From assembly GCA_016868455.1 (NCBI GenBank), contig VGGV01000005.1, positions 62,001-126,000 on the forward strand: a stretch of 64,000 bases of DNA. Reading direction: 5' to 3'. A model generated the notes under the pieces. That model was not told the DNA's origin, did no database searches, and worked only from the letters and a program-made list of their open reading frames with translations. The DNA is from Bacteroidota bacterium. GTDB taxonomy: Bacteria > Bacteroidota > Bacteroidia > Chitinophagales > Chitinophagaceae. Each line of letters opens with the position of its first letter. Within the stretch, counting starts at the first letter, position 1. Positions 2,490 through 37,100 of this stretch are shown in pieces. Made by a program: the position numbers and the translations under genes.

Positions 2490-2523
2490 CAAAGATAGGG
2501 GAAAGTGAATTGTCAATGGTCAA
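2490..2523 (-). promoter_or_regulatory. guaB promoter, -33 TTG and -7 TATCTTTG
   Basis: On the minus strand the perfect -7 box TATCTTTG (2490-2497) is preceded by a 20-base spacer and TTGACC (2518-2523), matching the Bacteroidota pattern TTG...TAnnTTTG. The box ends 3 bases before the guaB ATG, so the transcript would be leaderless or nearly so. The TTG lies inside the repeat that bounds the neighbouring four-helix-bundle element. Confidence 0.5.
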
Positions 2524-3061
2524 TGGTGAATACGGAACAGTCAATAAAATCGTTGATAATCTGGAATTCATTGACAATTCACTATTGACCATTCACTTAA
2601 TCATTCCGGTAAGCAATTTGAAACATCTAATCATTTTTTCTCCTAATGAAGATGAATGATATTTTTTTAGATAATTGAGATCATTTGCAATATCCAGCGC
2701 TGCATCAATTTCGATAATCGAACCTCTTGCAACTTCATAATACCGTTTTCGTTCTCCTTCCGATTTTCGGGAAGCGCCTTCAGCAATATTTAAATGGACA
2801 GAAAGGGCTGCTCTCCGGATCTGTGTAATCATACCATATTTTTCTCCGCCCGGAAGAGTTAAGGTTAGCCGGTAGCATTCAAATACCAATTCTCTGGAAG
2901 CTGAATGAACATCCAGCTTTTGGTGATTAAGTGTTAGAAACATAACATTTAGATTTAATTTGTGAATATTTAAATTAAGTAAATCCGATTTCTCTTTCGG
3001 GGGGAAAACACTAATAAAAAAGGAGGTTTTCTAAATTGCCGATTGACTATTCACTATTCAC
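2505..3061. mobile_element. IVS-like element 1: four-helix-bundle gene bounded by inverted short repeats
   Basis: The unit holds one gene (2593-2943, minus). Its left end is built from iterated gtgaat/gtcaat words (2505-2531); its right end reads attgactattcactattc onward (3042-3061), roughly the reverse complement. The left side also holds an inverted second copy: attgacaattcac at 2570-2582 is the exact complement of 2505-2517, followed by attgaccattcac at 2584-2596. On the minus strand the T9SS gene ends ...AGG TGA at the right repeat and the four-helix gene ends ...AAG TGA at the internal repeat, so both stop codons are made of repeat sequence. No transposase is present. Mobility is inferred from structure only. 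Confidence 0.5.
2593..2943 (-). CDS. Four-helix-bundle protein of the 23S rRNA intervening-sequence (S23/IVP) family
   Basis: 116 residues, almost entirely helical, with the family motifs ITQIRRAALSVHLNIAEGAS and the later EIDAALDIANDL stretch. The family includes the proteins encoded in intervening sequences of some bacterial 23S rRNA genes and Avd of diversity-generating retroelements. Members assemble into pentameric barrels and their biochemical role outside retroelements is not established. The ATG at 2941-2943 starts the conserved part directly. The gene lies inside a repeat-bounded unit between guaB and a T9SS cargo gene, and its TGA stop is formed by the repeat. A second, diverged member is at 19511-19912. 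Confidence 0.85.
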   Translation of the reverse strand: MFLTLNHQKLDVHSASRELVFECYRLTLTLPGGEKYGMITQIRRAALSVHLNIAEGASRKSEGERKRYYEVARGSIIEIDAALDIANDLNYLKKYHSSSLGEKMIRCFKLLTGMIK

Positions 3062-5106
3062 CTGATGAGCGTCACCGTTCCTTTTCGGAACACCGGCTGT
3101 TTGGTGTCGCGGTGCGTATAACTAAGCATCCATACATAAGTGCCCGTTGATTGCAATACACCGTTGATACGGCCGTCCCATTTTTCCTGCCAGTTACGGG
3201 AACGGAATACCGGTTGCCCCCAGCGGTTGTACACCCTAAAGTCATAATTGTCTGCTTTGATAGCATTGTGCGGACGGAAAAAATCATTCAGCCCGTCATT
3301 ATTGGGAGTAAATGCATTGGGCACATCAATAAAACAATGGTCCAATACGGTCAAAGTTTTCCGGGCGCTGTCGCTGCAGCCGAGTGTAAGACTGGTTACT
3401 GTAAGCTTCACCGTGTAATAGGCTTCCCGGTTGATGGTGGGGAACAGGAAAGGCGGCGGATCTTTCAGGGTGCTGCTGCCGATAACATCATAATTCCAGC
3501 GCCACAGGTCAATATTACCGGTACTGGTATTGGTAACGGCAAGTCCGTCCTCAGGACAAAGAATATTTTCCATGTCAACGGAGGCCTTTACTTCGTTGTT
3601 GAATGTAATCACGGCTGAAGTTGTATCGCTGCAGGTACCATTGCTTACATAAAGCCGGACATTGTTGGTGCTGGAAGCGGGGAATACAATTGAATGGGTA
3701 CGGGGGGTTACCGGCGGGCCTCCGTTAATTGTCCATAACCAAGTGTTCACATCATGCGCCCCGTCATGTGAAAAAAACACCGTGTTGGTCAAGCACCCGT
3801 ACAACAGCTGGTAAGTAAAATCGGCATTCACCGTATCCGCGGTGATGAAGAAAAGGTTTTGCGGCAGAATGGGCTGACCGCAGGCGTCAAAAATGGGGCT
3901 GCCGTCAATACCCGGCTGGATGGTAAGGGTATAAGTGCCTTTTGTATAAACAGGAGAAGCAAACCTGACAACGATATAATCGGTTTGGTCGTTCACACAA
4001 TTGCCGCCAGCGGCGGAAACAGTAACCGGGGTGGGGCCGGTCACAGAAAAATCAGAACCTGAGGCGGTGATACTGCTGCAGCGTATTTTCTTGGGATAAT
4101 ATACCAGTATGGAATCTGTTGCACAACCGGGCCTGCGGACACTGTCGGCAAAAATGGGTTGTGGCGCTAAATAGGAAAATGAAATTCTTTCGCCAACGGG
4201 TATGCTGTTGTCACAGTTATCTTTGAGTGTATTGCCGTCGGTTCCGTCGCTGATGATGAGATCATAGGTGCCGTTAGTAAGCGGAGCGGCAAGAGTTAAA
4301 ACGATTTCATCAAAATCAAAACCAAAAGCGCAGGAATCAGGCGTTGCAGCCGTAATAGTAGTAACAGCAGGAAACAAACTGAATTCACTGCCTGCAGGGG
4401 TAGCAGTTGTGCATTTTACTTTTTTGTTAAGCCGCAGGGTTAATTTACTTCCATCGCATTCAGGCTGCACACTTACCGGCAGGGGTACCTGCGGGTCAGT
4501 AATAACGGCAGTGCCGCCGCCGAAAGATAAATCATATCCGCTTTGGCCATCGGTAAAATGGCTGATCATCAGCAGGTATTCACGGCCGGCAATCAGGTTG
4601 GGCATTTGGGCAAAAGCATTCCGGTTATCCTGCGGCTGAGAGCAGCATTGTATAAAATTTACTCCGGCGGCAGAAGCTCCGGTATTGCCAAATGTGCCGG
4701 CCCAGTTGCCGGTTACTATAAGAGAATTATTGGTAAAAATATCGTTGGGATTTCTGCCGGTAATATCATAAAGCTGCCAGTCATAATCTTCGTTGGCAGC
4801 AAGCGGCCTTACGACAAACCCGAGAGTTCCGGAAACAAAACAGGTAAACTTGTAATAAAACGGATTTTTATCTGCATAGGCACAACCATCGCCAGTACAG
4901 CCCGGCACAAATAATGGATCCCTGTTAACACAAATGGGAACCTGGTTTTGCCTGAAGGTGGTGCTGCCGCAAACAGGAAAGGCAGTGGAAGGGGTCTGGC
5001 CTAATGTGCTGCAAGCAGGAACCGGACCCTGCCCCGTAGCTTTTAAGCTGCAGGCAAAAAATATTGACTGCAGCAAAATGAACCGGTATTTGCGGATAAG
5101 ATTCAT
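3058..5106 (-). CDS. Secreted T9SS cargo with type-B (gliding-motility-associated) sorting domain
   Basis: 682 residues. A signal peptide (about 1-26, ending near KATGQG) is followed by a Cys-containing N-terminal module, two repeated Ig-like modules (each with a KIRCSS/KVKCTT type strand), a PKD-like domain (about 430-510), and a C-terminal type-B sorting domain of about 85 residues beginning VPNAFTPNNDGLNDFF and ending in GTVTLIR. That ending marks export through the type IX system and placement on the cell surface or in the medium. Function beyond adhesion or matrix is not visible. The TGA stop coincides with the first bases of the adjacent repeat element, yet the C-terminus looks complete for the family. 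Confidence 0.88.
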   Translation of the reverse strand: MNLIRKYRFILLQSIFFACSLKATGQGPVPACSTLGQTPSTAFPVCGSTTFRQNQVPICVNRDPLFVPGCTGDGCAYADKNPFYYKFTCFVSGTLGFVVRPLAANEDYDWQLYDITGRNPNDIFTNNSLIVTGNWAGTFGNTGASAAGVNFIQCCSQPQDNRNAFAQMPNLIAGREYLLMISHFTDGQSGYDLSFGGGTAVITDPQVPLPVSVQPECDGSKLTLRLNKKVKCTTATPAGSEFSLFPAVTTITAATPDSCAFGFDFDEIVLTLAAPLTNGTYDLIISDGTDGNTLKDNCDNSIPVGERISFSYLAPQPIFADSVRRPGCATDSILVYYPKKIRCSSITASGSDFSVTGPTPVTVSAAGGNCVNDQTDYIVVRFASPVYTKGTYTLTIQPGIDGSPIFDACGQPILPQNLFFITADTVNADFTYQLLYGCLTNTVFFSHDGAHDVNTWLWTINGGPPVTPRTHSIVFPASSTNNVRLYVSNGTCSDTTSAVITFNNEVKASVDMENILCPEDGLAVTNTSTGNIDLWRWNYDVIGSSTLKDPPPFLFPTINREAYYTVKLTVTSLTLGCSDSARKTLTVLDHCFIDVPNAFTPNNDGLNDFFRPHNAIKADNYDFRVYNRWGQPVFRSRNWQEKWDGRINGVLQSTGTYVWMLSYTHRDTKQPVFRKGTVTLIR

Positions 5107-5174: not shown

Positions 5175-6281
5175 TCAGGACAGGCGGTATAATTTACCCG
5201 GTAAAGATACTATCACATTCTGTAATTCTAAATTAAGCATGGCTGCTGCCACCGCCCCGCTGCTGAGGCCGCTGCGAAGGTTAATTTCATCTATGTGAAC
5301 GGAATCTTTCTCCTTCAGGATGCTGATAATTATTTTTTCATCCGGCAAAAGCTCAATGAACAGTTCTTTTTGAGATTTGATTTTTGTTTTTTGATTTTTT
5401 TTGTCCTGCCATCCCATCAGTTCCAGCAGTTCTTTGGCGCCGGTGAGCAACTGCGCCTTGCTGCTGCGGATAAGATAATTGCAGCCGGCGCTTTTGGTAT
5501 CGGTAATTTTTCCCGGTATGGCAAAAACATCTTTGTTATAACCGTTCGCCAGTTCAGCGGTGATCATACTGCCGCCTTTGATATCTGTTTCAATAACCAC
5601 GGTGGCGTCGCTCATGCCGGCCACGATCCGGTTGCGGCCGGGAAAATTATGCTTATCGGGTTTGGTTTTTCTCCGGAATTCGGTAAGCAGCCCGCCGCCG
5701 TGTTTAAGCATATCTTTTGCAAGGCCGGTATGTTCAGCAGGATATACCTGGTCAAGTCCGTGGGCAAGCACACCAACAGTGGGCAACCCGTTTTTAATGG
5801 CGGCTTTATGAGCAAGGGCATCCACCCCATAGGCCATGCCGCTTACAACGGTTACCTGCTGCTCCGCCAGTTCCTTTATTAATTTTTCGGTCACCCCTTT
5901 TGCATAATCAGTATGATTGCGGGTGCCGATGATGCAGATGATTTTGGAAGCGTTCAGATCAGCGTCGCCTTTGTAAAATAAAAGCGTGGGGGAATCGTAA
6001 CAGTTCAGTAACCGTTTGGGATAATCCTTATCAGTCAGGAACAATGATTTGATCTTGTACTTTTCAATGAATTTTATTTCGTCTTCGGCCTTGCCAAAAT
6101 CTTTAAAATGTTTGATGCCATCGGCCCGTACCGGGCCGATGCCTTCTATTTTTTCGAGGAAATGTTTTTTGGCATGAAAGATCTCTTCCGCTTCGCAGTG
6201 CTGTAACAATATCTTCGCCTGCACAGGGCCGATATTGGGAACAAGGGTAAGGGCTATTTGATAAAGCAAATCAGGATGCAT
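5175..6281 (-). CDS. dprA: DNA-processing protein DprA
   Basis: DprA binds incoming single-stranded DNA during natural transformation and loads RecA. The 368-residue product has an N-terminal helix-hairpin-helix region (IEGIGPVRADGI, about 43-54), the central Rossmann-like domain with IGTRNHTDYAKG, SGMAYGVDALAH, FPGRNRIVAGMS and GGSMITAELANGYNKDVFAIPG fragments, and a C-terminal winged-helix segment (HIDEINLRSGLSSGAVAAAM). Length is usual for the family. ATG at 6279-6281. A -7 box TATATTTG lies 20 bases upstream. The neighbouring PorE-like gene is on the same strand but has its own spacing, so an operon is not obvious. Confidence 0.94.
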   Translation of the reverse strand: MHPDLLYQIALTLVPNIGPVQAKILLQHCEAEEIFHAKKHFLEKIEGIGPVRADGIKHFKDFGKAEDEIKFIEKYKIKSLFLTDKDYPKRLLNCYDSPTLLFYKGDADLNASKIICIIGTRNHTDYAKGVTEKLIKELAEQQVTVVSGMAYGVDALAHKAAIKNGLPTVGVLAHGLDQVYPAEHTGLAKDMLKHGGGLLTEFRRKTKPDKHNFPGRNRIVAGMSDATVVIETDIKGGSMITAELANGYNKDVFAIPGKITDTKSAGCNYLIRSSKAQLLTGAKELLELMGWQDKKNQKTKIKSQKELFIELLPDEKIIISILKEKDSVHIDEINLRSGLSSGAVAAAMLNLELQNVIVSLPGKLYRLS

Positions 6282-18885: not shown

Positions 18886-18912
18886 TTCCCCGTAACGACA
18901 GCCCTGCAGAGC

Positions 18913-19104
18913 AATAAGCTTAACCGGCGTCTGCATATATAAACTGGTACATTCTTTTCTTGTTCTCGGGCCTCACCCCATTAAAATTCCCAAAATTGAA
19001 GATTCTACACCCCCTCTCCATATGGAGAGGGGTAACGGATACTCCAATAATTGGAGTTTTGGTGGGGTGAGGTTGTTATATCCGAATAGCCGGTTAAGCT
19101 TATT
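18913..19104. repeat. 192-bp element with 16-bp perfect terminal inverted repeats and nested palindromes
   Basis: aataagcttaaccggc at 18913-18928 is the exact reverse complement of 19089-19104. Nested inside are cctcacccca (18971-18980) pairing with 19063-19072, a perfect 22-bp palindrome at 19011-19032 centred on catatg, and actccaataattggagt at 19041-19057. There is no open reading frame of note. The structure is MITE-like and could fold as a cruciform or RNA hairpin. Its right end lies 20 bases before the DUF3467 start codon. Confidence 0.65.
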
Positions 19105-19124
19105 TTTGGACAAATAACCGAAAC

Positions 19125-19436
19125 ATGGAACAGCCAACCGGGCAACCCAGCCAACTGAATATTGAAATATCCGAAGAGGTGGCCGAAGGCACCTATGCCA
19201 ACCTGGCCATCATCACCCACTCCCATGCCGAGTTTGTAATTGACTTTGTGAATGTGATGCCCGGCACACCCAAAAGCAAGGTGAAATCAAGGATCATCTT
19301 CACCCCGCAGCATGCCAAACGGTTTATGAAAGCCATAATGGAAAATATCCAGAAATACGAAGGGGTAAACGGGCCGATAAAAGACCTGGAGGAATTTCAG
19401 CTGCCGTTGAATTTCGGACCGGCGGGACAGGCGTAG
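19125..19436 (+). CDS. DUF3467 protein
   Basis: 103 residues. It matches DUF3467 in size and in the conserved stretch YANLAIITHSHAEFVIDFVNVMPG followed by AKVKSRIIFTP-like and AKRFMKAIMENIQKYE segments; the closest functional name known to me is simply a conserved small cytoplasmic protein of unknown role. It stands alone, downstream of the 192-bp inverted-repeat element and convergent with the four-helix-bundle gene. No signal peptide or membrane segment. Confidence 0.85.
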   Translation: MEQPTGQPSQLNIEISEEVAEGTYANLAIITHSHAEFVIDFVNVMPGTPKSKVKSRIIFTPQHAKRFMKAIMENIQKYEGVNGPIKDLEEFQLPLNFGPAGQA

Positions 19437-19440
19437 GGGG

Positions 19441-19965
19441 TTCATAGTCCGGAGTTTAAAGTTCATAGTTCATAGTTCATAGTTTATAGTTCATAGTTTC
19501 ACTCAGGATATTATTTTTCCCTTGCCTTAAACTTTTGACCCCTGAAATCGCTTTTACCGAGATAATCAATCAGTCCAAATATCATTTTACTGATTTCATC
19601 AATCAGGGTTGATACCTCTTCCATTTTTTCATTATTAATATACTTTCTATCAAACGCCCTGTAGAGTTGCGATTTCACTTCCATTGCCGATCCATTTGCA
19701 ATTGTCAGGAAATTGATAAACTCATTGTTTCCCTGTCTGCCAAATCCTTCTGCAATATTGTCCATTACAGAACCTGATGAACCATTGATCTGGTCTTTTA
19801 GCTTATAATCTCTTGAAAAATTTTCTTGCTGAATCATCTCAAAAACCAACTGGCATAATAACCTTGATTTCTGCCAAACTTTTAGATCTTCGAATTTGCT
19901 GATAGTTGCCATTGCTCTCTTTTTTTAGACAATTTAGAACTTTGAACTCTCAACTGTGAACTATA
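19441..19965. mobile_element. IVS-like element 2: four-helix-bundle gene bounded by iterated repeats
   Basis: One gene (19511-19912, minus) lies between a left end of tandem agttcat words (19441-19500) and a right end with complementary gaactttgaact / caactgtgaactata words (19937-19965). On the minus strand radC ends ATA TTA TAG with the TAG formed by the first repeat bases. Its layout is the same as 2505-3061 although the repeat words and the encoded protein differ. No transposase is present. Mobility is inferred. Confidence 0.5.
19511..19912 (-). CDS. Four-helix-bundle protein of the S23/IVP family, second copy
   Basis: 133 residues, all helical, with the family signature FEDLKVWQKSRLL at the N-terminus and IAEGFGRQGNNEFINFLTIANGSAMEVKSQL in the middle. 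It is diverged from the copy at 2593-2943 (about 17 residues longer, few shared residues beyond the family motif), so it is not a recent duplicate. It shares the family with 23S IVS proteins and retroelement Avd; the cellular function is unknown. No reverse transcriptase or variable-repeat template is in the window, so this is not a visible retroelement. Start is ATG at 19910-19912. Confidence 0.88.
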   Translation of the reverse strand: MATISKFEDLKVWQKSRLLCQLVFEMIQQENFSRDYKLKDQINGSSGSVMDNIAEGFGRQGNNEFINFLTIANGSAMEVKSQLYRAFDRKYINNEKMEEVSTLIDEISKMIFGLIDYLGKSDFRGQKFKAREK

Positions 19966-20653
19966 ATATTCCTTCATCCGCAAAACTGTAATATCCGCTG
20001 TTGCTTACTATGATATGATCCAGTACTGCAATGTCCAGCAGGGCGGCGGCACCTTTAATTTTTGCAGTAAGTTCTTCATCAGCCCTGCTTGGTTTCAGGC
20101 TGCCGGAGGGATGATTGTGACATAAGATGATGCTGACAGCGTCTTCTTCAAGGGCCCTTCTTAATATGATGCGGGGGTCGGCCACGGTGCCGGTAATACC
20201 CCCTTCACTGATGATCTCAAAATGGTTTACCTTATTGGCACGGTTTAAAAATAATACGGCGAACACCTCATGCCGGTGGTCCTGCAGCCTGGTTTGAAGA
20301 TAGCGGGCAATATCATGACTGGTTTTGATAACCGACTTATCCAGCGGGGCTTCTGCTATTCTCCTGCGGCCCAGTTCAAGGGCAGCGGCAATGGTAATTG
20401 CTTTGGCTTCGCCGATACCTTTAATTTTCATCAGCTCTTTTACCGAAAGTTTTCCCAGTTCACCAAGGTTATCTTTTCCCAGTTTCAGTATTTCCTTGGC
20501 CAGGTCAACAGCGGTTTTTTGCCGGGTGCCATGGTGGATAAGGATGGCCAGCAACTCAGAATTACTGAGGCTGGCTGCCCCCGCGGATAGTAATTTTTCT
20601 CTCGGCCTGTCGTCTTTTGACCATTGTTTAATTGAGTACATGTGCTCTTGCAT
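19961..20653 (-). CDS. radC: RadC-like JAB-domain protein
   Basis: 230 residues. An N-terminal helix-hairpin-helix part (LMKIKGIGEAKAITIAAALE, about 70-90) precedes a JAB/MPN domain with the metal motif HNHPSG...D (ILCHNHPSGSLKPSRAD, about 178-194). RadC family members were named for a repair phenotype later assigned to another gene; their true role is unsettled. Start ATG 20653 or the near ATG at 20641; the longer is used because residues before the second Met are usual in homologs. The stop codon TAG overlaps the repeat bounding the next element. Confidence 0.93.
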   Translation of the reverse strand: MQEHMYSIKQWSKDDRPREKLLSAGAASLSNSELLAILIHHGTRQKTAVDLAKEILKLGKDNLGELGKLSVKELMKIKGIGEAKAITIAAALELGRRRIAEAPLDKSVIKTSHDIARYLQTRLQDHRHEVFAVLFLNRANKVNHFEIISEGGITGTVADPRIILRRALEEDAVSIILCHNHPSGSLKPSRADEELTAKIKGAAALLDIAVLDHIIVSNSGYYSFADEGIL

Positions 20654-20749
20654 ACAACCAATTTAGCTAATAATTTTAATCCATGAATACCAGAAACGGT
20701 ATTTCATGAAGCCGCCAGCAACCCTTTGAAAAACCCAAATCCGGTACGT

Positions 20750-31110: not shown

Positions 31111-34100
31111 CTATTCTACATTAATTCTGACTCCTTCGCTATGACTGCTAAACTCCGGTGCATACATACACTGAATCGTTGTTATCCCATTGCTGAAGTT
31201 GCCGGTATGGGTTACCAACAACGGATACTCGAACACATAGGTACCTTTTCTCAGGTAGCTAAAGAAAAAGTTGGTGCTGGCATCCTTGGTGCTTTCATAA
31301 TAACCCAGGCCGCCCTGCCATTTGTACTGGCTCAGCACATTTACAGGCTCCAGTGCGGAGGCCCGCATGTCTTTCATGTGCACATATTCCATGTCACGGT
31401 CAACCCGCAGTTCCACCCTTACTTTTATTTTATCACCCACTTTCAATACATCGCCATCGTTTACGGGTGTGAGCACCGGGCCACGGTCGGTATTCTTTTC
31501 TGTGAACAGCTTCTTAGATAGTTTCAGCGGGGTAGAAGCGGTAGTAATTTTATCCAGGTCTTCAAAATACTGCCAGTAAACGCCACCCCATGACACCAGG
31601 GATTGGTTAATTGGTTTATTGGTTAATTGGGAGCTTACAGTTACAGAAATATTTCCCATTTGAGGTGTCACTTTTACTCCATCAATTGTTTTTTTGAAAT
31701 AACCGGTTCCGGCTTCGGCGGGTTCTGTTCCTCCTCCGGAGGAGGAGGTTAGGAGGAGGCCTCCCATTTTTATTTCAATGGCGGGTTCATCGCTTAACCC
31801 CCCGATACCTATCGGGGCTGTGCCCTGCAGCAGCAAAGCATAACAAGCCTCTGCGGTGGCCTTCGTGGTTTTCCAGTTATTGGTTTGTTTGTTTTTCAAT
31901 AACCATGTCCGGAGGTCGTCAACGGTTTTGGTATCCTTGCCGGCTTCCTGGAAGGCTTCAATCAGTAATGAATGTGTTTCTATCGGCGCTTCGTACCAGA
32001 ACCATCCATTGCGCTGGTCTTTCCAGTACATGCCAAGTTCTTCATGGGTGATGGAAGTTTCTTTGAGTGATTTTAATATGGCTTCAGGAGTTTTTATATC
32101 GCCTGTTCTGAACAGGGCCAGGGCAATCATACCCTGCATGTACTTGCTTTGTGTCAGCCATGTTTGCTGTATCCGGCCACGGAAATAGTCATAAGCCGTT
32201 TTTGAAGCTGTGACAAGCTGGTAATCCGGCAAGAAACTTCGCATATACAAGTACTGAATGGTGGTATAGCCCGGAGTATATGTTTTCAGATTGACTTTGT
32301 ATTTAATAAGGTCGTCAAAATCTTCTTTTATTTTTCTGTCGAGATAGGGGATTGCAGTCTGAAGAATCGCTTTCAGTTTATTCTCCTGCCCTTTGGCAAC
32401 AGCCTTCAGTTTCAACAGGTGGCCAATACCGGTAACAATGTACTGGGTAATGTAACGGTCATCGGGTCCGCCGGTGAACCATACAAAACCGCCGTTGCTG
32501 CTCTGCATTTGTTTCAGCTTGTCGTAGGAACTATTGAGTTGTTCACTCATCTTCACCATATCAAACAGCAGGGCGATATTTCTTTTTTGCTCGGCTTCAT
32601 TCTTTGCCTGCAATACCCAGGGCGTTTCTTCCAAAAGAACTGCCTTCAGTTCCTGGTTTTTCTGCAGGTTGCTCATCAATGCTGCTGTGTCTTTAATCTT
32701 CCACTTTTCAAATACCTGTTTGATCTTCGGTGATGAGTTAGCGATATAAGCAGCCAGTGAATTGGCATAGTAGCGGTTCCATGTCTGTTCTGCACATTCA
32801 TAAGGATATTCCATCAGGTAGGGCAGAGCCTGCACGGCATACCAGGCGGGATTGCTGGTGTACTCGACGGTAAGAGCATGATGCTGCAGTGTTTCAGAGC
32901 TGCCTGAGTTCAGCAGTTTGGTAAAACTGAAATTTTTGGTACTGGTTCCCCGCATGGGCAGTGGCATGGTCTCGGTTACCAGCATCCGGTTGGTGAGGAC
33001 AGGCATTGCGTTTTCCTCACCGTCGCTGTAAGCCCCGGCTTTGGCAACAATCCTCCATAGAAGGGCTTTGTTAAACTGGTAGGGTACTTCAATCGGAAAT
33101 TTCACCAACTCACTTTGTCCGGCAGCAACCGTAAAGTACTGGTTGGGCATCTGATTTTTGAAATAACCATCCACCGGTTGGTCGGTGGCAGCATCAAACA
33201 GTTGAAATTCGGCGGTGCCTGTAATTTCTTTACCGGTCAGATTCACCACCTTGGTGCTGAACTCCATTTTATCGCCTTCCCGCATAAACCGCGGGGCATT
33301 GGGCTGCACCATCAGTTCTTTTTGTGTCACAATTTCTTTAGTGCTGCTGCCAAAAGCGGCCTCTTTTGTATGTGCCAGGGCCATGAACTTCCATTTGGTC
33401 AACGCTTCGGGCATAGTAAATGAAAACTCAATAGCGCCGGTACTGTCCGTTTTCAGATCAGGGAAGAAGAAAGCGGTTTCGTTGAAGTTTTTTCGGATTT
33501 TGACAGAGGGATCTTGTTGGCCTTTTTTTTCTTTATCGAGTTTATCAGCAACCCCATCGGCATCAGAGTCTCCATTTTTTTTCTTTTCAACGTTTTCAGC
33601 GTTTTTTAAGACGATGTCTGTTGATGCAAGTTCTTCCATAGCCGGAGCACCAGCAGGTTTTTGCAATCGCATTAATCTGGGATTTCTGTAATCTCCTACT
33701 TCAGAAAACAAAATATCATATCTCTTGTCAACATATTTTAATTGCTCGTCACTCAAATACTTTTGCTTTGACTGTAACTGGTTAAAATTCTGTGTACCAC
33801 TCCAGCTTTTGCTATTATAGAAATAAGGCCATATTGAAGGTACTCTCCAACCATGCGGGTAAAACTGATCCAGTGATGCATCATACATACTGGCCAGCAT
33901 CTCAGCCGCCATTTTTTCTTTTTTATAACCGGTAATTTTTACTTTCCATTTTTCCTCGCTGCCGGGTAAAGTCTTGTCCCTGTATGTGGCATATTCAATC
34001 GCAAGGTCTTTGTTCGTCCATGGCACACTGATGTTCTGGCTTAGCTGGTACAGCCGGTTATGTTTGATGAACATCCAGCCTGCGCCAAAGCCGCCCCGGT

Positions 34101-37100
34101 CTTTTTCAGAAGCATCAAAAGAAAAAATCTTCTTTTCATTGGTAAGTTTTAGAAAACTATAAATTCCTGCTTCCTGCCTTCCGCCTCCCGCCTCTTTATT
34201 TATTTGATGAACTACAAACAAATTATCAGCAGCAGTGCCGAGTTCCACTTTAGCAGTTTCACCCAGCTCCACAGTTGTTTTCTTTATACCTGTCCATAAA
34301 TAATCCGGCCGGCTAAGCTGGTTGCTCTTTTCATCAAACAGCTCCATGTATTTCACATCCTTTACCTCTTCACCATTCTGATCTTTAGTTGACATTTCAA
34401 CTATATAAAAGCCCGGTTCAAATTTTTTATTCACTATTGCCCATTCACCATTCACCTTTGCTGAATCACTCTTCTCTAAAACAACCTCGCCCTTCTCCCA
34501 ACTTTTATAATCACTTTCGTTATCATATTCATCATAGGGAAAATTTTTTATGTATTCATCCTTTGTCATCACAAACTGGTCGGGCCTTTCCCAGTAGCGG
34601 CCCCGGATAAGACGTTTTTCTTCTTTTAGTTTACTTATAGAAACTTTCACTATAGCCGGTTCATGTTCTCCGTTCATGTTTTGGGTGCGGATGGAGAGTT
34701 TCTTCAGACTGTCGGCCGGCAGGGTGGAGGGAATACTGCTCACCAGCATCAGTGATTTATAGCTCACAGATACCGACTTTTCACCGCTTCTTGTTTCCCC
34801 ATTGATGTCTGTTACATCAGCATACACAGTATAGTCAAATACCGGTTCAAATTTCCTGTCAATTTTCAGATCGGGTATGGCCGTAAATTCTACAACAAAT
34901 TTTCCGTCTTTATCTGTTTTGGCCTCTCCGTGGGCAATTTCCATTTCTTCAGAGGGTGGCTGCCACCAGCGCCAGAATATCCATGGATAGATAAAGCGGG
35001 GTTGCCTTACTACCCGGTAACTTACCGAAGCCCCGTCAATATTATTGCCGGCATAGGCTTTAGCGATACCGGTCACTTTTATTTCGTCATTTACTTTATA
35101 AGTGCCTTTGATCGGTTCGTATTCAACATAAAATTTGGGACGTTTATATTCTTCCACTTTAAAACCAGCATTACCATTATCAGCTCTTGTATAAATGCTG
35201 AACTGGCCGTTCATGCCGCTTTGGGGCAACTGGAATTTACCGCTGAAGGAGCCGTACCCGTTCGTTTTTACCTTAATAGTGTCAACATCCTTATAATTAG
35301 CATCACGCAGGATAACAGTGGTACTGTACCCGGAATTTACCGAGCCTGTTTTTTCTTTCCTGTTACTGGTAAGCACTATCCCTTTAAAAAAAACTGTTTG
35401 GCCGGGACGGTAAATACTTCTGTCGGTAAACAGAAATACGGTATTGATGGTCTTTGGTTCTTCTGCATCCTGGTTATAGTAATAATAATCGTAAGTGTAA
35501 TCGTTCATAAACAGCCTGTCGCCGTTATGGGTGATATCGAGGAGGTAGGAATAAGAACGGTAATCATTTTTTTCTCTTTTGATTTTTTCGAAGCGGAAAA
35601 AGCCATTTCCATCAGTTGTATAAGCCCTCCCTTTTTCTTTAATGTACTTTGACTGGTTATAATCATAGCGCTGTTCCCAAACCTGCACGGCAGCTTTGGC
35701 AAGCGGTTGGCCGTTATCACGGTTCAGTACAAAATAATCATTGCTGCTGTTGACATAACTGATGCCTGACACATAGAAAAACCGGACGCAGAGTATGGTT
35801 TTCTTTCCGCTAAAATCTTTATTGTCTGATGCAAGCAGGATATATTCACCGGAAGGCAAACCTTCCACTTTTATTTCTGTGCTGTGCTGCTGGTAATCTT
35901 TGGCATCCGGAAGTTTTTGTTCCCAGCTTTTTTCTGATTTTGCCGAAACAAGCAGGGGCCAGTATTTTTCATCGTACTGGTTTTCCAGTTGTTTCTTCAG
36001 GTTCTCATCGGGTTGAATGATCCGGAAATAGAGATTAGTTATATTCTTGTATTTAACCAAAGCCCGGAAGGACTGACCGGGTATATTCACTTTCTCAATG
36101 CTGAACTGAAATGAACGGTTGTTGATCTGGTTCAGCAGGTTATAACAATTGATTTTTCCTTCAGACGAGTCTTTTTGCTGAAGTATTCTTTCACAAATCT
36201 CTTTGGCTTTCAGCCGGCTGAACCGGTGGGTAGTATCGCCATATGGTTTGTAGGCATCGGCATTCTCATTATGGTATGCCGCCAGTAAATACCATGCCTG
36301 TGATGCAGCCGAAGTATTACCATACTGGCTGGCAATATGGTTAATGGCATTGAAATAGAGTTTATTTTTTTCGGGGTGTGTGGATTTGCTTTTTACAAAC
36401 TGAATCCGAAGGAGGTCCGCATCAATCAGTGCATCGGGCCGGGCATCGAATAAATGGAAGGCAATTAATTTCTGGTAAAGCAGCAGGGCTTTATGCTGCA
36501 GCGACAGAGAATCTTTGGTAGGAAATTTCCGGATAACAAAATCTGCTGCAGGGTCAAATGCACTGGCCTGGCTGATTTCAAAGGCATAGGCCGGTTTCTT
36601 AATGTCCCTTTCGTCATTTTCAAAATAATGGATGGCCCGTTGTGCCAGCAGGTCAAACAGGGTGGGGCGCAGGTGGCGCACATTACCTTTTATAATGATG
36701 GCATCGTAGTTATTCAGTTTCGTTTGCTGTAACAGTTTTTCGGGCAGAAGCGATTGCAGGTACAGGTTGCTTATCTTTTTATGAAAATCCTCGGCATCCC
36801 AGGTGGCAATATCTTTTTTGGAAAATTCCTTTGTCCTGCTGCGGTCATACAGCTGCCAGCGGTGCTGCTGGTAATAATTCCAGTACATTTCAGCCAGCAG
36901 GTTTTTCAGGATAGCAGTTACCGGCTCTTTGCTTACTGAAATCTCTTTTTCCACCTCAGCGATGGAAAATATTTCATTGTCTTCACGGTTCTCACTTTGC
37001 AGACCGGTCATGTACACCAGGGCTTTAATCAACTGGGCATCCTGTTTTTCTTTTTTGGCCAGGGCGTGTATTTTTTTCACTTCTTCCAGAGCTGATTTCG

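Follow-up and report, generated by a model that had tools for sequence, protein, structure and literature searches.

A candidate intervening-sequence-like cassette built from an IVP gene and inverted arrays of seven-base words in Chitinophagaceae

Background

At the junction between a DUF3467 gene and radC on contig VGGV01000005.1 of a Bacteroidota bacterium (Chitinophagaceae), a small minus-strand gene lies between two complementary arrays of short words, which raises the question of what holds gene and words together and whether such a unit can move. The window, i.e. the whole stretch of 64,000 nucleotides analysed here, had previously been described in a sequence-only reading, in which this locus was taken as the second of two units of the same plan, and in which a reverse-transcription-linked or RNA-based spread was considered.

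Intervening sequences of 23S rRNA genes that carry an S23/IVP ORF, such as that of Coxiella, are called selfish elements, with mobility among the hypotheses, and the IVP/S23 family is given no known function in the available portion of that source (PMC4990558). In the REP/REPIN-RAYT systems, a class of repeats is tied to a particular protein, the phylogeny of whose gene is largely congruent with that of the species, according to the accessible text of PMC3116915. Tandem heptamers are a known and unexplained class of bacterial repeats in the excerpted text of PMC4692102, where those of Xanthomonas are partly arranged as inverted pairs; dispersed heptamers are described from Xanthomonas and Nostoc (GGGAATC, GGGGAYT) and, as TAACTGA, from Beggiatoaceae in the available parts of PMC4692102 and PMC4679880.

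Results and Discussion

Structure of the unit between the DUF3467 gene and radC

The order of repeat, minus-strand IVP gene and complementary repeat that the sequence-only reading had described for 19441-19965 was confirmed, the unit extending over 19440-19972 (Table 1). The minus-strand ORF was assigned to PF05635 by profile search (E 4.8e-35; 120.4 bits against a cut-off of 33.8), and 2GSC and 2RLD are the only solved chains that match the encoded protein by sequence at E up to 1. The cassette fills the whole gap between the two stop codons: the left arm begins a few bases past that of the DUF3467 gene, and that of radC, read as CTA on the plus strand at 19961-19963, lies inside the right arm, as had been claimed. 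The longest pairings between the arms span 27-29 nt with 79-85% complementarity, and the flank-to-flank score of the locus (20) is reached by 1.6% of mispaired downstream flanks. No Rfam match was found in window positions 19000-20700, and the cassette is located at this junction of protein genes and not within a 23S rRNA gene.

The first unit in the window (2497-3063) follows the same plan with GTGAAT/GTCAAT words. The words of the two units had been called unrelated; they do differ from each other, but the AGTTCAT words are members of the class [GA]TT[TC]NNN of their own IVP clade. Two runs of words without an IVP gene are found inside an ORF of 2066 aa, of which the GGTTAATT word resembles the arms of two resident cassettes, L008 and L010, and the GTGAATG-type word resembles the arms of the first unit. 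The same ORF contains a GAGGCGG/GGAAGGC-type array (34160-34202), and no resident cassette was recognised with such a word. A further word array is present within a dprA-like gene (5364-5411; the gene names dprA, HisS and purE were assigned by reading translations). In the orthologue of this gene at L368, the corresponding position of the protein is taken by an AGTC-type array, with the length unchanged, and since the two arrays differ in word and not in length, words may be replaced in place.

Table 1. Positions of the two IVP units, their neighbouring genes and gene-less word runs in the window
Feature	Position	Strand	Basis
First unit, one arm, GTGAAT/GTCAATG words	2497..2533	+	Word and flank comparison
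First unit, IVP gene (L006)	2593..2943	-	IVP profile search
First unit, other arm	3026..3063	-	Flank comparison
DUF3467 gene, 3' end forming one cassette border	19125..19436	+	Profile match
Left arm, tandem 7-base AGTTCAT-type words, class GTTYNNN	about 19440..19499	+	Sequence reading, 26/28 lag-7 matches
IVP gene, PF05635, four-helix-bundle family, 133 aa	19511..19912	-	Profile match
Right arm, complementary words, class as left arm	about 19933..19972	-	Sequence reading, arm pairing
radC, co-directional host gene upstream of IVP, 3' end forming the other cassette border	19961..20653	-	Profile match
Solo run of 8-base GGTTAATT words, no IVP gene, inside 2066-aa ORF	31605..31631	+	Word scan
Solo run of GTGAATG-type words, inside 2066-aa ORF	34422..34464	-	Word scan

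Copy number in the genome and the genus

The argument for a recurrent unit had been built on two copies, and a search for others had been proposed. The two copies are indeed independent units, but the profile search revealed 13 IVP genes, not two, spread through the source genome (2.64 Mb in 64 contigs). Among 42 same-genus genomes, 210 IVP genes were identified in 30, while the other 12 are IVP-less. The latter are mostly small, G031 (2.6 Mb) alone reaching at least 2.5 Mb, and this small size of the IVP-less genomes counts against the cassette model. The 124 loci on which the flank comparisons are based are a non-random and mostly higher-scoring subset of the 210 matches (133 hits, of which 127 are unique and 124 have both flanks).

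Flank pairing and the seven-base period

Each upstream flank was scored against the reverse complement of the downstream flank. Across the 124 loci, the median score of a flank with its own partner is 19, compared with 11 for mispaired flanks, and the own partner falls in the top 5% at 82 of the loci and is the best at 37. The flanks of 119 neighbouring genes, which served as controls, have a median of 10 (Mann-Whitney p 2e-27 against the IVP loci), and the control 95th percentile is exceeded by 84 of the 124 IVP loci; the 40 that do not exceed it count against the cassette model. The earlier argument that two copies of one plan speak against chance is thus upheld by the comparison of own flanks (19) with mispairs (11) and control genes (10), and a simple chance origin was rejected by the mispairs, control genes, shuffles and other periods. 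Autocorrelation in 46 arms is 0.47 at lag 7, 0.43 at lag 14 and 0.38 at lag 21, compared with mostly 0.27-0.34 at lags off the multiples of seven. Both arms contain little C (about 7-8%) on their inward-reading strand.

A scan of genome contigs with the window IVP yielded 578 relatives, of which the best 80, at 50-68% identity, were kept; to go by their titles, these best 80 derive mostly from Bacteroidota, and they include a Rhodohalobacter as well as a contig labelled Planctomycetes. For the 77 of these wider relatives that have both flanks, own pairs reach a median of 18 and mispairs one of 12, and 30 loci lie above the mispair 95th percentile, a bar that stands as high as 21 since mispairs have their word class in common; the 47 loci that do not exceed it nevertheless count against the cassette model. 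The sequence-only reading had named, as adverse to its proposal, the restriction of the plan to two copies and the lack of a conserved flank plan in related genomes; instead, there are 13 copies in this genome and 210 in the same-genus genomes, and inverted flanks are conserved as a group in the 124 loci.

IVP relatives are also encoded on 26 plasmid records, while a scan of 50,697 phage records with a threshold of E 1e-3 detected none. Eight of 18 plasmid loci are above the mispair 95th percentile, comprising three from Nostoc and one each from Anabaena, Calothrix, Geminocystis, Riemerella and Azospirillum; the 10 that are not count against the cassette model. The cassette of an IVP gene and words, with differing words, recurs across several bacterial phyla, and this recurrence suggests a kind of selfish DNA that has been overlooked. 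By eye, a Pseudanabaena plasmid IVP has the same plan. The IVP genes of three cyanobacterial plasmids (L394, L395 and L404) are located within CRISPR operons; in two of these, cas6 and cas4 are the neighbours on either side, and in the third, cas10 and a Cmr3-family gene.

Arm similarity and word class

In 86 syntenic cassette pairs compared between species, the similarity of the same arm (0.40) hardly differs from that of opposite arms (0.39), the former being greater in 37 pairs. This comparison is free of the upward bias that affects the similarity of the two arms within one cassette (0.68), as two arms had to align for inclusion, which left 90 of the 124 arm sets. The same arm being no more alike than the opposite one between species, and the two arms being alike within a cassette, it follows that the arms change together. 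At non-syntenic sites, arm similarity climbs from 0.21 to 0.48 with IVP identity (Mantel r 0.218; maximum of 200 permutations 0.087) and, to judge by these comparisons, the arms go with the IVP gene.

A pattern of three in-register [GA]TT[TC]NNN words, which was formulated after inspection of the data, is present at 64 of the 77 wider loci, mostly Bacteroidota (outward-strand control 10/77). Within the genus it was observed at nine of the 18 loci of the window's IVP clade (control 0/18) and at one of the 106 loci of other clades (control 8/106), with Fisher probabilities of 6e-35 for 64/77 and 3e-8 for 9/18, each against 1/106. The other IVP clades have other words, with a period of 8 or 9 in some. 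The fixed part of the word, as far as these counts indicate, follows the IVP clade.

Occupied and empty sites

Of 28 same-genus DUF3467-radC junctions, 10 are occupied by an IVP cassette, and at least five words are represented among these cassettes. The 18 junctions without a cassette comprise 3-40 nt in 13 and 89-146 nt in five; two further loci, of 30, did not extend to radC. At L032 (genome G004), radC was matched as two overlapping pieces, as if frameshifted. Including this junction, cassettes are present in some and absent from other related species at four sites. The cassette L092 of G001 is absent from the 90-92% identical site of G026, as well as from G003, G028, G014 and G033. L140, also of G001, is absent from the 88-91% identical site of G026, with gene-less inverted arms recognised by eye at the site in G003 and G033 and 553 nt of other sequence in G028, while the G014 junction is not alignable. 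L085 of G014 is absent from the 90-92% identical site of G033, where about 40 nt of different junction are found, and from G001, G026 and G028, with G013 matching one short part of the query only.

Several features of these sites speak against the cassette model. L085 seems to stand in place of about 40 nt of its target, and the cassette encodes no transposase or other catalytic protein. All IVP pairs above 82.9% identity are syntenic on both sides, and the closest pairs not found syntenic are 80-83% identical, some of them doubtful owing to partial synteny; since the closest pairs are syntenic, movement is slow. Of the hallmarks of insertion sequences and MITEs, a clear target-site duplication was not seen at the three empty sites compared, and a transposase, absent from the cassette, may be supplied in trans. 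In some relatives, the empty sites of L092 and L085 show similar words in a short run on one side, and such solo arrays could represent either a target pre-dating the cassette or a scar post-dating its loss.

Gene-less word arrays

Arrays of period 7 or 8 number 34 in 800 kb of six IVP-bearing genomes and one in 400 kb of two IVP-less genomes (G031 and G019), as compared to seven and four, respectively, for arrays of other periods, and at a stricter threshold none remain in the sampled IVP-less genomes. The 20-kb samples avoid listed IVPs only and, as the listing is incomplete, a few of the sampled arrays may be arms of unlisted IVP genes. The density of the arrays is uneven, with 10 in 160 kb each of G010 and G023 and one in 120 kb of G013, which is array-poor despite its 13 IVPs, an observation at odds with the cassette model.

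Matches to an AGTC word pattern, AGTCNGGAGTCNGGAG, number 161, 97 and 63 in three genomes and 1-15 in ten others, and they outnumber arrays since they overlap inside an array. The 12 IVP-less genomes have no match, and 0-3 were obtained with the reversed control; the absence of the pattern from 17 of the 30 IVP-bearing genomes goes against the cassette model. In one genome, G023, the pattern is distributed over many contigs. Among 23 distinct loci of the 30 retrieved, a strong inverted partner lies within 250 nt in four, while 11 lie inside long open frames and lack such a partner, and one array is located in a gene whose translation resembles histidyl-tRNA synthetase. Short arrays also occur in frame within coding genes. 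When the words of 32 solo arrays were ranked against the cassette arms of 15 or 16 genomes, the resident genome was among the top four in 16 (about 8.5 expected) and ranked first in five; the words thus appear to match the arms of the resident genome weakly, and this weakness weighs against the cassette model.

Other genes with inverted flanks

ORFs of the GxxExxY family (PF13366) resemble the IVP cassettes in having inverted word-like arms, with 19 of the 32 ORFs scoring higher than the mispair 95th percentile, in a profile-defined set that includes fragments and some long, poor alignments. The protein is, however, unrelated to IVP (its Pfam name is PDDEXK_3), and the style of the words differs (CGCAGAT, CACAGAG). 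Within the genus, GxxExxY genes are present in 24 of the 30 IVP-bearing and none of the 12 IVP-less genomes, a difference that may also stem from genome size. L164, L167, L168 and L180 have in common a second GxxExxY arm type, which is close to TGTCTGAACCATGATTTGGG. The Y1 transposase genes L185, L186, L194, L196 and L203 have inverted REP-type palindromes at their flanks, which is the conventional RAYT plan.

A proposed mobile cassette and its alternatives

On balance, and with slightly better than even confidence, these loci are interpreted as mobile, intervening-sequence-like cassettes whose protein recognises its own word arms and which have REP/REPIN-like satellite copies. In such a selfish cassette, an IVP gene would be bordered on either side by an array of a 7-base (sometimes 8- or 9-base) word, the two arrays being inverted. 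The association of gene and word suggests that the protein, which is an oligomeric four-helix bundle, binds the words of its own arms, be it in DNA or in an RNA stem, in which case arms and gene would be selected together. The gene-less arrays may be satellites that exploit this recognition, in the way proposed for REPs and REPINs with RAYTs. The IVP gene would be expressed through read-through from the upstream host gene; the upstream gene is co-directional with it at 96 of the 109 loci where both neighbours could be assigned (of 124), which fits such expression, as for intervening sequences. The likeness of the arms may be maintained by template switching or conversion from one side of the hairpin to the other, and the cutting and joining enzyme would come from outside the cassette, either from host replication or repair or as a nuclease in trans such as GxxExxY. 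A broader proposal, which we put forward tentatively and with rather less than even confidence, is that these cassettes belong to an unrecognised class of mobile DNA, the sole gene of which would encode a four-helix bundle without enzymatic activity (the GxxExxY nuclease taking its place in a sister class), with ends formed by freely drifting seven-base arrays read by a clade-specific code, and that the heptamers of Xanthomonas, cyanobacteria and further bacteria are its gene-less satellites.

The arms may instead be kept only for the stem that they form in the host mRNA, a stem that either is cut by RNase III or protects the message, so that compensatory change would explain their match and ordinary horizontal transfer and recombination the spread of the unit. 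The sense orientation behind the upstream gene is in keeping with such an RNA intervening sequence, as both neighbours run along the IVP direction in 69 of the 109 loci and against it in six, and so is the low C content of both arms on the inward strand, as a result of which each arm pairs poorly with itself. The window unit also folds slightly better as RNA than its shuffles (z -2.1; 3 of 100 shuffles as good), and the complementary ends of 23S intervening sequences are cut by RNase III in the available text of PMC4990558. Selection on the RNA alone should leave a wobble bias on the sense strand, for which there was no clear support: the ratio is 109:70 in the loose set (p 0.004), where a non-wobble asymmetry of 72:46 is seen beside it, 83:59 in the middle set (p 0.053) and 46:35 in the strict set (p 0.27, non-significant). 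A stem also leaves unexplained the solo arrays that lie without a strong partner inside ORFs (11/23), and an RNA stem as the sole explanation is considered rather unlikely. It is more doubtful still that the arrays are inert microsatellites produced by 7-base polymerase slippage, with the IVP genes as incidental passengers. Heptamer repeats are over-represented in many bacteria and slippage has been proposed for them, to go by the accessible parts of PMC4679880 and PMC4692102, and array length does vary among orthologues; slippage, however, would not account for one word pattern spread over the many contigs of G023, for arms that are inverted and matched and whose word class tracks the IVP clade, or for the near absence of arrays from the two IVP-less genomes sampled.

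Movement in trans by a Y1 (RAYT-type) transposase is highly improbable. The source genome does contain five Y1_Tnp matches, some weak or broken, and some Y1 genes of the genus have inverted REP flanks, a similar plan (7/21 over the mispair 95th percentile), but the REP palindromes (CCCCGAAGGGG type), which were seen at Y1 loci only, are unlike the word arrays, and such a transposase is not required, since IVP-bearing genomes without a Y1_Tnp match exist, including G003, G005, G015, G026, G028 and G029. The least credible of the alternatives is the spread linked to reverse transcription that the sequence-only reading had raised, in which IVP would act like Avd beside a reverse transcriptase. 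A resemblance of IVP to Avd would favour it, but the idea was not borne out, as PF00078 (RVT_1) finds no reverse transcriptase in this genome, which also sets the locus apart from a diversity-generating retroelement with Avd, and six of the 42 same-genus genomes have a match as against 30 with IVPs; a reverse transcriptase in trans is accordingly rejected for this genome and unlikely for the genus.

Relation to known systems

In the way it works, the mobile cassette favoured here combines traits of intervening sequences and of REPIN-RAYT systems, and the defining features tested place it in neither group. In the 23S rRNA intervening sequences, as far as the available text describes them, an IVP ORF lies in a transcribed unit between complementary ends, and the cassettes have complementary ends too; they differ in lying between protein genes, in their many copies per genome and in the dispersal of gene-less arrays. 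The arms of the cassettes are tandem 7-base words. With REP/REPIN-RAYT systems, described in the accessible text of PMC3116915 as small genes near inverted recognition sequences with dispersed singlets and inverted doublets, the cassettes share the inverted pair at the gene and the dispersed solo or doublet copies. They differ in encoding a PF05635 protein rather than a Y1 tyrosine transposase, and in having tandem direct words, not palindromic REPs, in arms that drift and change together. The heptamers of Xanthomonas, Nostoc and Beggiatoaceae are described, in the available excerpts, without a link to IVP genes, while the arrays considered here bound IVP genes and their word follows the clade. 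A literature search, the reach of which left most subscription journals outside, returned no paper linking IVP genes to heptamer arrays, and the available parts of PMC8934634 and PMC5524665 contain nothing on such a link.

The tie between IVP and heptamers gives both a testable role, in which each protein is predicted to bind the word of the cassette that encodes it and the repeats are predicted to be satellites, and IVP cassettes become a possible source of the puzzling seven-base repeats. If this is true, intervening sequences move beyond rRNA into general genome evolution, and the cassettes provide a natural series of protein-word pairs from which to learn how a small helical bundle reads nucleic acid.

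Neighbouring repeats in the window

The intergenic region at 18910-19105 contains nested inverted repeats, recognised by eye, in which AATAAGCTTAACCGG is paired with CCGGTTAAGCTTATT and CCCCTCTCC with GGAGAGGGG; these are possibly a MITE-like element of another kind.
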